Positions 5,412-39,151 of a stretch of 59,139 bases of DNA are shown here, one piece after another. This DNA comes from Desulfovibrionaceae bacterium (lineage in GTDB: Bacteria; Desulfobacterota; Desulfovibrionia; Desulfovibrionales; Desulfovibrionaceae): NCBI GenBank assembly GCA_015233395.1, contig JADFXV010000012.1:1-59139 (forward strand). The letters run 5' to 3'. The notes beneath the pieces were generated by a model. The model saw nothing but the letters and a program-made list of their open reading frames with translations, did no database searches and had not been told where the DNA came from. Positions within the stretch are counted from its first letter, which is position 1. Each line of letters begins with the position of its first letter. The translations under genes and the position numbers were made by a program.

Positions 5412-5930
5412 ATGGAAATGACAGATATCTGCCCGGCTACGGCCTGGGCGGCGCTCGAAGAAGACATCCACCGCCGTTTCGGGCTCAATGCCCGCATTTA
5501 CGACAGCAAAGGCTTTTCCTTCACCGGACATGTCACCTGGGGAAACCGGCTCTGCCCGGCGGTCAAGGCCAGTCCCCAAGCCGTCTCCGCCATCTGCTCC
5601 CTGGCCCAGACGGCCATGGCCGCACAGGCCAGGGACTCACGCGCTGCCGTGATCGACCAATGCGACGCCGGACTCTACAAAATCTGCGTGCCGGTCTTCG
5701 CGGGCGACGATTTCGTGGGCGTGGCCGGGGGCTGCGGCGCGCTGCCGCAAGACGGCGAGATCGAGTCCTTCCTGCTGGAAAAATCCGCCGGTCTCAGCGA
5801 AGATCAGACGGCCGAACTCTCCTTGGACGTCCCCGTCATGGACGAAGCCGCCGCCGCCGAAGCCGCAAAGTACATCGAAGAACGCGTGGCCGCACTGCTT
5901 GACGCCTATCGCGCCAAGCAAAATTCTTAA
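5412..5930 (+). CDS. PocR ligand-binding domain protein
   Basis: This 172-residue cytoplasmic protein resembles the PocR-type sensory domain. It has a central Cys-containing core (CPAVKASPQAVSAIC, then DQCDAGLYKICVPVF and VAGGCGALP) and a C-terminal helix that could dimerise. No output domain is attached. GAGG lies 6 bases before the ATG. It is 24 bases upstream of the HmcE-like gene, so it may sense a ligand or redox state for the membrane electron-transfer pair; this is inferred from context only. The 115 bases upstream, after xerC, hold no recognised gene and probably contain the promoter. Confidence 0.75.
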   Translation: MEMTDICPATAWAALEEDIHRRFGLNARIYDSKGFSFTGHVTWGNRLCPAVKASPQAVSAICSLAQTAMAAQARDSRAAVIDQCDAGLYKICVPVFAGDDFVGVAGGCGALPQDGEIESFLLEKSAGLSEDQTAELSLDVPVMDEAAAAEAAKYIEERVAALLDAYRAKQNS

Positions 5931-5954: not shown

Positions 5955-6608
5955 ATGGACGCACTGTACACTCTGGCCACCGGGCCGCTGCTCATGTTCT
6001 CATTTGCGGTCTTCGCGCTCGGCGCCGCCGCCCGGGTCGCGCTCTTCGTCCGGCTGGCGCGGCGCAAAGACCTGCCCGTGCTCCAAGGCTTTCAGCCGCA
6101 CTGGGCGGCCCGCTCCATCCTGCATTGGCTCATCCCGGCCAACGTCACCGCCAAAGCCAGCCCCTTCGTGACCGGCTTCGGTTTCCTGTTCCATATCTCG
6201 TTTCTGGCCTGCGCCGTGTTCTGCCAGGCGCACGTCGTCCTGATCGACGCCGCCTGGAGCCTGTCCTGGTGGACGCTGCCCGACCAGGCCGCCGACCTGC
6301 TCGCCCAAGCCTTCCTCGCCGCCGCCGCCTTCTTCGCCGCCCGCCGGCTGCTCATCCCGGTCGTGAGAACCCTCACCACCCCGGCCGACTGGCTCGTCCT
6401 GGCCATAGCCGTCGCCCCCATGCTCACCGGCCTGCTCGCCGCCAGGCAAATCGGCGACTACAACCTCATGATCACCCTGCACGCGCTCGCCGGAAACCTG
6501 CTGCTCCTGGCCATACCCTTCACCAAACTCTCGCACATGATCCTGTTCTTCGTCTCCCGCGCGGTCACGGGCAGCGATTTCGGCAAACGACAGGTGGGAG
6601 CGTGGTAG
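5955..6608 (+). CDS. NarI-like membrane b-type cytochrome subunit (HmcE/TmcC type)
   Basis: This 217-residue integral membrane protein has about five predicted transmembrane helices. His176 and His194 sit 18 residues apart (TLHALAG and KLSHMILFF), the spacing of the haem b ligands in NarI. His80 and possibly His93 are candidate partners in the N-terminal half. This matches the membrane subunits HmcE, TmcC and DsrM, which pass electrons between menaquinone or periplasmic cytochromes and a cytoplasmic HdrD-like subunit. The HmcF-like partner follows after 101 bases. No periplasmic multihaem cytochrome gene is adjacent, so it is not a complete hmc or tmc operon. Confidence 0.85.
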   Translation: MDALYTLATGPLLMFSFAVFALGAAARVALFVRLARRKDLPVLQGFQPHWAARSILHWLIPANVTAKASPFVTGFGFLFHISFLACAVFCQAHVVLIDAAWSLSWWTLPDQAADLLAQAFLAAAAFFAARRLLIPVVRTLTTPADWLVLAIAVAPMLTGLLAARQIGDYNLMITLHALAGNLLLLAIPFTKLSHMILFFVSRAVTGSDFGKRQVGAW

Positions 6609-6673: not shown

Positions 6674-6694
6674 CCAGGGGGCAGCGCCCCCTGG
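6674..6694. promoter_or_regulatory. GC-rich hairpin just upstream of the HmcF-like ribosome binding site
   Basis: A 9-bp perfect stem (CCAGGGGGC / GCCCCCTGG, loop AGC) ends four bases before the GAGGAG ribosome binding site (6699-6704) of the Fe-S gene. It could influence mRNA processing or relative expression of the membrane and Fe-S subunits. The same GGGTCCAGGGGGC-type hairpin is common between genes in such genomes, so it may simply be a repeat. The rest of the 101-base gap is AT-rich. Confidence 0.5.
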
Positions 6695-6709
6695 TCACGA
6701 GGAGTGACT

Positions 6710-7945
6710 ATGCCCGTTGACGTTGCGGCGGTGAAAGAGGTTCTCGCGGCCAAGCAAGGCGCGCGCCTCAAGATGTGGCTTGAGATTTGCGCCCGGTGCG
6801 GCTTGTGCGCCGAGGGGTGTCATTTTTACCAGTCCGACCCCAGGCCGGAGTATGCGCCGGCCTATCGTCTCAAGCCCTTGATGGAAGTGATCCGGCGGGG
6901 CGGCGAGGTGGACGAGGAGCTGATAAAGCGTCTGTGTGAGGTGGATTACGGCACCTGCACCATGTGTCAGCGCTGCACGATGTATTGTCCGTACGGCATC
7001 GGCGTCAACGTTTTGGTGCGGGCGGCGCGTTCGATCGCCGTGGCCGCCGGGGCGACTCCGCTGGGTTTGGCGCGCGGCCAGGCCAATTTCGAGGAATCCG
7101 GCAACAATCTGGGCATGAGCGGGCCTGACTATCTTGAGACCGTGGAATGGCAGCTCGAGGAGTTGCAGGCGGAGCTTCCGGACGCGAAAGCGCCGATGGA
7201 CGCAGCCGGGGCGCGCACGATGGTCACCTTTCATCCCCGGGACATCAAGTTCTACCCGCAGAATCTGTATTCCTACCTCAAGATTTACAACGCCTGCGGC
7301 GAGGATTTCACGCTCACGAGCGAGGGTTGGGATTCGACGAATCTCGGGCTTTTTTCCGGCAACGACGCCATCGCGGCGAAAATGAGCGGCGCGGTGGTCG
7401 CGGCGGCGGAGCGTTTGGGGGTGCGCCGCGTCCTCACCGCCGAGTGAGGGCATTCACTCAGGGCCCTCAGGTTTGAGGCGCCGGGATGGTTGGGAAAAAA
7501 GTTCGGGTTCGAGGTGCTGCCGCCGCTGAAATTATGGGCGGACGCCTTTGCCGAGGGCCGGCTCAAGCTCAAGAAGCACTTTTACGACGAGCCGGCGACG
7601 TTCCAGGATTCGTGCAATTTCATCAGGAACGGCGGGTACTTCGATGAATCGCGCTTGCTTCTGCGGCGCGTCGCGAGCGACCTGCTCGAGATGAGTCCGA
7701 ACGGCAATTACACCTATTGCTGCGGCGGCGGCGGCGGGCACGCGCTGATGCCCGAGTACAAGAAAATCAAGCTGGCCACGGCCAAGGCCAAGGCCGAGTG
7801 CATCAAGGCCACGGGCGCGAAGACCGTCGTGGTCGCCTGCCACAATTGCGAGGACGCGATCCGGGAATGCGTGAAGGAATACGGCCTGGACTGCAAAGTG
7901 GAACTGTTCAGCAATTATTTGGCCGAGGCAGTGGAACTCGCCTAG
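6710..7945 (+). CDS. HmcF-type Fe-S/CCG-domain protein with probable selenocysteine (in-frame UGA at 7445)
   Basis: The frame runs from ATG 6710 (GAGGAG five bases upstream) to TAG 7943-7945, 411 residues, with one in-frame TGA at codon 246. Two [4Fe-4S] motifs are present: C27-C30-C33-C37 and C83-C86-C89-C93. The C-terminal CCG domain has Cys302, Cys337-Cys338 (CCGGGGG) and C377-x-x-C380, as in HdrB/HdrD/HmcF. The UGA lies in LTAE-U-GHSLRAL, where I recall relatives having ECGH, and coding similarity continues without a frame change (LRFEAPGWLGKKFGFE). A bSECIS-like hairpin follows. Translation as two genes is unlikely, because the TTG at 7490 has no ribosome binding site. It should reside on the cytoplasmic face with the HmcE-like subunit. 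The alternative is a nonsense mutation or sequencing error. Confidence 0.87.
7445..7482 (+). promoter_or_regulatory. Selenocysteine UGA codon and bSECIS-like hairpin
   Basis: UGA at 7445-7447 is followed by a stem: GGC 7462-7464 pairs with GCC 7480-7482, C7479 is a single bulge, and CCUCA 7465-7469 pairs with UGAGG 7474-7478. The tetraloop GGUU is at 7470-7473. The loop begins 22 nt after the UGA and opens with G, within the usual bacterial SECIS geometry (loop about 16-37 nt from the UGA, G in the first loop positions) and similar to the GGUC-type loop of E. coli fdhF. SelB binding is inferred. Confidence 0.8.
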
Positions 7946-8022: not shown

Positions 8023-8068
8023 TCTGGGGAGAAACCCCTTTTGTTCACAAAAGGGGTTTCTCCCCAGA
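8023..8068. repeat. Perfect intergenic palindrome (22-bp arms), possible bidirectional terminator
   Basis: Arms of 22 bp around a TC centre: TCTGGGGAGAAACCCC then TTTTGT, and its exact complement. It lies between the HmcF-like stop (7945) and the aminotransferase start (8092), flanked by an A/T-rich AAAGTTTTTTGAGGAAG arm. It is one of at least six palindromes of the same design in the window (11700, 19410, 30789, 34635, 46598). The position at a gene end and the stem strength suggest transcription termination. Confidence 0.75.
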
Positions 8069-15820: not shown

Positions 15821-16085
15821 AGGGGCTGTCCTAGCTAAGGAATTCGCTTTCCGCTTTCATGGGGGCCGGGGGCGAAGCCCCCTGGGAAAAAACCAGTGGT
15901 TCTGGCTTTCCTCTTCAAAGAGCTGCCGCGTTCAGGCTAGAAAGCAGAAAACCAAAACCACTCTTTTTTTCCCAGGGGGCCTGCGGCCCCCGGCCCCCGC
16001 TTGAAGACAAACAAAGAATCCACTTCAACAGTCTAATAACATTGCGAAAAATGTGGATCGTCGCTTGTTAGCTAGGACAGCCCCT
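15821..16085. mobile_element. MITE-like element with 18-bp perfect terminal inverted repeats
   Basis: Ends AGGGGCTGTCCTAGCTAA (15821-15838) and its exact complement (16068-16085) bound a 265-bp segment with no transposase. Internally there is a second large inverted repeat: GGGGGCCGGGGGCGAAGCC, CCAGTGGTTCTGG and AGCAGAAAACC-type segments face one another. The flanks AATAAATAA (15812-15820 and 16087-16095) could be a target duplication, but they are low complexity. A related half-copy lies at 39002-39151 and a fragment at 29972-30030. The element sits between fabH and fabG in the 493-base gap 15670-16162; the remainder of that gap shows only a decayed palindrome near 16096-16160. Confidence 0.8.
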
Positions 16086-39001: not shown

Positions 39002-39151
39002 AGTGGTTTTGCTTTTCTGCTTTCAAGCCTGAACGCGGCGGCCCTTTGAAGAGCAAAGCCAGAACCACTGGTTTTTTCCCAGGGGGCTTCGCCCCCGGCC
39101 CCCCGGTCCCCAGGAAAGCGGAAAGCGAATTCCTTAGCTAGGACAGCCCCT
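39002..39151. mobile_element. Half-copy of the MITE-like element
   Basis: The segment runs from the interior (TTCTGCTTTCAAGCCTGAACG) to the inverted end TTAGCTAGGACAGCCCCT (39134-39151), matching the reverse complement of the left half of 15821-16085 over about 145 bp with a few indels. The other terminal repeat is missing. The last two bases (39150-39151) form the final AG of the TAG stop of the minus-strand flavoprotein gene. Confidence 0.8.

Follow-up and report, generated by a model that had tools for sequence, protein, structure and literature searches.

A selenocysteine-containing HmcF/TmcB-like iron-sulfur protein predicted in a Desulfovibrionaceae bacterium

Introduction

Selenocysteine (Sec) usually marks residues that carry out redox chemistry. 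Iron-sulfur proteins with Sec have been reported in several forms. An entry “Fe-S oxidoreductase-like protein, PTHR43551, UGH” stands among the high-confidence predicted selenoproteins in Table 1 of PMC13188914. GlpC selenoproteins have been counted, one of them in Desulfovibrio vulgaris (PMC1794560), a TGA-containing Fe-S oxidoreductase of Desulfotalea psychrophila has been listed (PMC1914089), and HdrD4 and HdrF2 of Desulfobacterium autotrophicum HRM2 are selenoproteins (PMC2702500). Since these UGH, GlpC, Fe-S oxidoreductase and HdrD4/HdrF2 selenoproteins are in print, the kind of gene described here is, by the excerpts of these papers that we consulted, already known.

The gene lies in a 59,139-nt stretch of DNA from a Desulfovibrionaceae bacterium (the window). 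Judged by the same excerpts, it resembles the UGH Fe-S oxidoreductase and GlpC selenoproteins in its U-G-H motif, its occurrence in Deltaproteobacteria and a Sec at a position where relatives carry Cys. The operons described for those selenoproteins are glpC-hdrA-frhD-frhG-frhA, whereas the copy in the window is accompanied by a TmcC/HmcE-like membrane gene instead. Like HdrD4 and HdrF2 of the sulfate reducer D. autotrophicum, it combines a Sec with an HdrD-type protein that has an HdrC-like and an HdrB-like part (PMC2702500); HdrF2 has a built-in membrane part, whereas the membrane subunit of the window system is encoded by a separate gene.

A further system for comparison is EtfD of Mycobacterium smegmatis (PDB 9ojn). 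According to the accessible part of its description (PMC13083937), the noncubane [4Fe-4S] cluster is bound by Cys637, Cys672, Cys673, Cys709, Cys712 and His583, and a linear [3Fe-4S] cluster by Cys503, Cys538, Cys581 and Cys584. By the same account, the noncubane cluster of EtfD is non-catalytic owing to its His ligand (PMC13083937).

Within the accessible text of the papers found in our literature search, none joins selenocysteine with HmcF, and no TmcB with Sec is described. The same portions of the literature did not contain an HmcF/TmcB-like branch with a membrane partner, a link to the EtfD ligands, or Sec/Cys exchanges with loss of a hairpin.

A reading frame that continues through TGA

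Read from ATG 6710, the frame meets TGA only once, as codon 246 (7445-7447), before it stops at the TAG of 7943-7945; its product has 411 residues. An earlier interpretation of this DNA (the sequence-only reading) had claimed that the frame runs from 6710 to 7945 through the TGA without a shift, and both the coordinates and the length of the product were confirmed. It had also predicted that the gene would be annotated as two broken genes if UGA recoding were ignored. Translation with table 11 indeed cuts the frame into ORFs of 247 amino acids (6704-7447, GTG start) and 151 amino acids (7490-7945, TTG start), and the annotation is corrected here to one selenoprotein gene in place of two broken genes. 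The gene, its parts and the two genes directly upstream are listed below; loci refer to the alignment described in the next section.

5412..5930, + strand: PocR-type sensory domain protein, a possible but uncertain member of the unit (Pfam PocR, PF10114, 8.1e-13)
5955..6608, + strand: TmcC/HmcE-like membrane subunit, likely partner (NCBIfam TmcC NF045723, 226 bits, under the cut-off of 240)
6700..6704, + strand: AGGAG, likely ribosome-binding site, 5 nt 5′ of ATG 6710 (read by eye)
6710..7945, + strand: predicted Sec-containing HmcF/TmcB-like iron-sulfur protein, Sec246 from UGA (profiles, fold, pLDDT 94.8)
6788..6820, + strand: first [4Fe-4S] motif, Cys27-Cys30-Cys33-Cys37 (all four Cys in 106/106 loci)
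6956..6988, + strand: second [4Fe-4S] motif, Cys83-Cys86-Cys89-Cys93 (each Cys in at least 105 of the 106 loci; a single locus is unreadable in this part)
7445..7447, + strand: UGA, predicted Sec246, in the motif E-U-G-H of residues 245-248 (Cys/TGA column, Sec machinery in the genome)
7451..7453, + strand: His248, counterpart of EtfD His583 (His in 104/106 loci; alignment to EtfD, ligands as given in the accessible part of PMC13083937)
7462..7482, + strand: hairpin of the bacterial SECIS type, with a GGUU loop (7470-7473) on a stem of 8 pairs with one bulge (folding, comparison of Sec and Cys copies)
7613..7849, + strand: complete CCG domain with Cys302, Cys337-Cys338, Cys377 and Cys380, predicted noncubane [4Fe-4S] site (Pfam CCG, 6.1e-11)

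The E-U-G-H motif at residues 245-248 corresponds to the UGH motif given for the Fe-S oxidoreductase-like entry in Table 1 of PMC13188914. The five Cys of the CCG domain are Cys in 101-105 of the 106 loci, the rest being gaps.

Cysteine and TGA at codon 246 of relatives

We aligned 106 loci, the one in the window included, which came from a search of 99 genomes (the host genome among them), a scan of assembled contigs and further stretches. The contig scan contributed 64 loci, 12 with TGA and 52 with Cys. From the 99-genome search, every one of the matches listed that carried a TGA was aligned. Another 12 loci were added to the alignment, seven of which had been picked for a TGA inside the match. 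The column of codon 246 holds Cys in 75 loci, TGA in 31 and nothing else, and TGA is absent from every other column. The proposal that relatives should carry Cys or UGA at position 246 thus held for all 106 loci. After removal of five same-contig duplicates (L055, L057, L060, L061 and L091) and the fragment L063, 100 non-redundant rows remained, 26 with Sec and 74 with Cys, a ratio that is no measure of prevalence because seven loci were chosen for having a TGA.

The same TGA is present at the same codon in other species. Identity to 16 non-redundant orthologues is similar on both sides of it, with 59-70% in the part upstream and 62-71% in the part downstream. When 348 genomes of the order were surveyed, 17 full-length copies with at least 60% identity were found (own genome included), each with one TGA, and no Cys copy at this level of identity was among the matches listed. 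A fragment at a contig edge (G248) has one TGA and one TAG. The survey also showed a TGA in two more distant copies (G113 and G115, 39-41% identity), which were left out of the alignment.

The Sec rows are distributed over several groups: 17 belong to the clade of the window copy (clade A), and L032, L033 and L115 form a group that also holds the Cys row L131. The others are L117-L119, L120, which is paired with the Cys row L124, and L121-L122. In a quick tree, whose deeper joins are unsure and whose branches are partly long, the Sec/Cys labels require five changes, four of them forced by well-supported branches. This tree implies no fewer than four exchanges between Sec and Cys at the one column within the sampled rows. 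L115 (Sec) and L131 (Cys) are sister copies in one genome, and the Cys copy is without the hairpin described below (3 pairs). The host genome further encodes L123, a relative of the Cys type that is accompanied by a separate membrane gene. The repeated exchange points at residue 246 as the working residue, in a family related to the sulfate-reducer subunits HmcF, TmcB and DsrK.

A hairpin downstream of the UGA codon

The hairpin at 7462-7482 begins 14 nt after the TGA and has its GGUU loop 22 nt after it; the stem consists of eight pairs with one bulged C. Stem length, bulge, loop and both distances are exactly as in the sequence-only reading. Taken alone, the fold of the window copy is only modest evidence for a hairpin: compared with shuffled sequences, z was –1.27 over 45 nt and –2.15 over 25 nt. 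When the codon order of the window copy was shuffled, eight pairs were reached in 6.3% of cases, in a test that has little power for any one sequence (0.7% to 28% of the shuffles did as well).

The comparison of Sec and Cys copies gave a much clearer picture. A stem of at least six pairs at the same offset is present in 25 of the 26 non-redundant Sec copies vs 3 of the 74 Cys copies, and a loop G-U at offsets 26-27 in 26/26 vs 13/74; rank tests of this difference are inflated by near-copies. The exceptions are the Sec copy L121 with a stem of only four pairs and three Cys copies that reach six or seven pairs. Pair by pair, in registers that were chosen after inspection of the Sec rows, five inner pairs hold throughout the 17 rows of clade A, with a closing pair that is A-U in nine rows and G-C in eight, and the outer pairs are less regular (standard in 7 to 16 rows). 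The nine other Sec rows have different letters in the stem that still pair: 89% of their inner pair cells are standard, compared with 32% in the Cys rows in the same register. The presence of the hairpin in Sec copies and its near absence from Cys copies is strong evidence for it.

In the bSECIS model of PMC13188914, as far as the excerpt gives it, the apical loop has 3-9 nt with a G in the first two positions, the upper stem 4-16 bp, and the distance to the UGA is 16-37 nt. Loop, stem and spacing of the window hairpin lie within these limits. The prediction of a SECIS-type hairpin is thereby borne out, both by these three features of the published model and by the association with Sec copies. 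Rfam gave no match to a SECIS family, neither in the whole window at the gathering threshold nor in 7430-7520 at E values up to 10; four weak matches to Rfam in 7430-7520 were far under their gathering scores.

Selenocysteine machinery of the host genome

The sequence-only reading had proposed a search for selA, selB, selC and selD, and all four were found in the host genome, which has 3.37 Mb and a stated completeness of 98.9%. SelA, SelB and SelD matched with 612, 340.5 and 321.6 bits, all over their cut-offs. A tRNA-Sec was detected with 85.7 bits (cut-off 47) and called tRNA-SeC with the anticodon TCA by ARAGORN, which was run on this place; two more places barely reach the cut-off (47.2 and 47.0 bits). 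Within the window itself, ARAGORN found no tRNA. The host SelD match (G000:C66:24610-25530) has one in-frame TGA, and SelD is therefore likely a selenoprotein too.

With the Cys/TGA column and the hairpin, we regard it as nearly certain that the gene encodes one 411-residue selenoprotein, in which the UGA at 7445-7447 would be decoded via SelA, SelB, SelC and SelD and the hairpin at 7462-7482. The finding of Sec is well supported, for a kind of protein that is already catalogued.

Protein family and fold

By Pfam, the 411-residue protein has a 4Fe-4S dicluster domain together with a single CCG domain (residues 297-382). The NCBIfam models for HmcF (NF045711), TmcB (NF045724) and DsrK (NF045796) matched with 325.4, 307 and 180.9 bits, under their curated cut-offs of 750, 735 and 400, and an assignment to any of these three families proper was rejected on these scores. 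The functions of Hmc, Tmc and Dsr are therefore not simply transferable. The likeness consists in profile matches over nearly the full length and in the E-C-G-H that Cys-type relatives show at the Sec position; unlike HmcF, TmcB and DsrK, the window protein scores under the cut-offs, has Sec for Cys and shows no cytochrome c domain among nine neighboring ORFs (Pfam). Of the proposed HmcF/HdrD-type Sec subunit, the Sec and the type are thus supported, and HmcF itself, with 325 bits against 750, is not.

The AlphaFold model of the protein has a mean pLDDT of 94.8. Its best structural match is EtfD (PDB 9ojn; Z 26.3, rmsd 3.1, 378 residues). After it rank LutA (9a6l_A) with Z 20.9 and 3kwl, a protein of Helicobacter pylori, with Z 19.2. 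HdrB chains come next with Z 18.3-19.0 over residues 168-411, as expected for an HdrC-HdrB fold. The match to an HdrC chain is weaker (Z 7.5 over residues 9-223, a level that the tool calls common), with an HdrC profile match of 1.8e-07. Owing to these matches to EtfD, HdrB and HdrC, we consider a fused HdrC-HdrB fold the best reading of the protein. Two complete CCG domains with two noncubane clusters, as in HdrD or HdrB, are not present, since Pfam finds one CCG domain.

We aligned both the window protein and the family profile to EtfD, and in each alignment Sec246 corresponds to Cys581, His248 to His583 and Ser249 to Cys584. At the noncubane site, every one of the five Cys is retained (Cys302, Cys337, Cys338, Cys377 and Cys380), so that five Cys and the His correspond to the ligands named in the accessible part of PMC13083937; both proteins also have two further four-Cys cluster motifs. 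The second site differs. His is found at position 248 in 104 of the 106 loci and Cys at position 249 in none, and no conserved Cys stands opposite Cys503 and Cys538 in the family alignment. Cys196, the sole Cys between positions 93 and 246 of the window protein, is Cys in 3 of the 106 loci. With the counterparts of Cys503, Cys538 and Cys584 lost, one cluster site should be empty except for Sec246. EtfD carries the linear [3Fe-4S] cluster and a membrane part in one chain according to the same source, whereas the window protein has lost that cluster site bar Sec246. As His248, two residues on, matches a ligand of the noncubane cluster, we infer that Sec246 should lie close to this cluster. The predicted position of the Sec, together with the sister copies L115 and L131, makes the role of the conserved Cys directly testable.

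Membrane partner and genomic neighborhood

The TmcC/HmcE-like gene is located directly upstream of the Sec gene in all 22 clade-A rows, among them four same-contig duplicates and one fragment. Its product has four His that are invariant in 56/56 aligned relatives, duplicates included, a pattern in line with NarI-type b subunits, which carry two haems. Within clade A, a neighboring PocR gene was seen for the window copy and L022 alone (L055 shares a contig), as far as the flanks of 1.5-5 kb in the other loci show. PocR-like genes were also seen just downstream of the distant Sec relatives L118 and L119, and a few kb or less upstream of the Cys genes L110 and L114.

In the nine neighboring ORFs (the two adjacent upstream and seven further out), Pfam identified PocR, HDOD, GGDEF, phage-integrase-type recombinase, aminotransferase and riboflavin-synthesis domains, and no cytochrome c domain. 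The sequence-only reading had suggested a site of electron bifurcation or heterodisulfide-type reduction. Nothing points to bifurcation, because Pfam finds no flavin-bifurcation, flavin or HdrA-type domain in the Sec protein or the nine neighboring ORFs.

For signs of a wider operon, neighbors of the window copy and ten clade-A loci were clustered by blast, with flanks of up to 5 kb. Beyond the membrane and Sec genes, shared clusters occur in at most 4 of the 11 loci, mainly in L051-L054 and L058, which are closely related. A larger cluster (10/11) was rejected, as it comes from antisense shadow frames in this GC-rich DNA.

Inspection by eye showed other arrangements in more distant Sec relatives. 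At L118, an 829-amino-acid HdrA-like protein and a ferredoxin-like protein precede the Sec gene (–2500 to –11), an arrangement that recalls the published glpC-hdrA operons. At L115 (G022:C10), a small protein with several CxxCH motifs is encoded after the Sec gene and a sigma-54-type regulator before the membrane gene. The L115 lineage may represent a Tmc-like complex with a Sec subunit.

Possible role of Sec246

Fold, motifs and gene order make it quite probable that the protein is a fused HdrC-HdrB-type subunit that docks at the membrane and transfers electrons between the quinone side and a cytoplasmic partner. It would contain two cubane [4Fe-4S] sites and one noncubane [4Fe-4S] site, and is probably docked on the TmcC/HmcE-like subunit encoded just upstream; from this docking it follows that electrons should pass between the membrane quinone side and the cytoplasmic partner.

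For Sec246 itself we propose a thiol/disulfide mechanism, tentatively and with somewhat less than an even chance of being right. The first CCG domain would have lost its own cluster and kept only Sec246, as a lone selenolate beside the noncubane [4Fe-4S] cluster. A thiol or disulfide substrate would be bonded transiently to Sec246 (Se-S), and the noncubane cluster would assist in breaking or making this bond, with electrons arriving singly along the clusters. Via the two cubane clusters, electrons would go to or come from the membrane subunit. Against this mechanism, the EtfD-like His248 could make the noncubane cluster a mere electron relay, by the accessible part of PMC13083937. That Cys suffices in many relatives (74/100 rows) also counts against our overall explanation. 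Sec decoding, architecture with docking, and mechanism taken together have about an even chance. In a more specific version that we consider doubtful, the lone Sec, in the emptied pocket of a degenerate CCG domain and facing an intact noncubane cluster, would replace the second noncubane cluster of HdrB. No solved structure with such an active site was found among the structural and profile matches. If it is true, the conserved Cys of DsrK, HmcF and TmcB would do the same job in electron-transfer complexes of sulfate reducers.

These proposals compete with three other explanations. A TGA terminates translation by default and a TTG at 7490 could start the downstream ORF, so the codon could be a true stop or a sequencing error, leaving a broken gene or separate proteins of 247 and 151 residues. 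We see virtually no chance for this: all 75 aligned relatives without the TGA have Cys in its place, the hairpin is linked to the TGA, and the Sec machinery is complete. Other species share the TGA, with similar conservation on both sides. A broken gene or sequencing error was accordingly rejected on the Cys/TGA column, the hairpin, the 348-genome survey and the two-sided conservation.

The other two accept the Sec and concern its purpose. In the main alternative, Sec246 would serve as a ligand, either to the noncubane cluster or to a small cluster at the former D1 site, and tune the redox potential without substrate chemistry; the protein would be only an electron wire that connects the membrane subunit with a cytoplasmic carrier. 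Sec246 is indeed aligned to the cluster ligand Cys581 of EtfD, which is read as an electron wire, and His248, which completes the noncubane cluster in EtfD, is kept (104/106). However, no conserved Cys matches the D1 ligands Cys503, Cys538 and Cys584, so that one residue would have to hold the cluster alone, and the retention of Sec or Cys despite the loss of the other ligands suggests a role of its own; we judge a ligand role rather unlikely. We give still less weight to the idea that Sec mainly protects an active-site thiol from irreversible over-oxidation, leaving the reaction unchanged. Such a benefit would agree with the frequent Cys at this position (74/100 rows) and with Sec and Cys sisters in one genome (L115 and L131), but all 17 full-length clade-A copies from the 348 genomes keep the TGA, which suggests steady selection, whatever its cause. 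The lone selenolate remains our preferred, if tentative, proposal for residue 246.

Repeated sequences around the gene

Two further features flank the Sec gene. At 8023-8068, 3′ of the gene, lies a perfect 22-base inverted repeat with a 2-base spacer, a possible terminator that lacks an extended run of T where it ends. The other feature, at 6674-6694 in the gap that separates the Sec gene from the membrane gene, is a GC-rich palindrome (CCAGGGGGC...GCCCCCTGG); it recurs with two mismatches at 15865-15885 and 39079-39099 of the window, and no such recurrence was found in shuffles.
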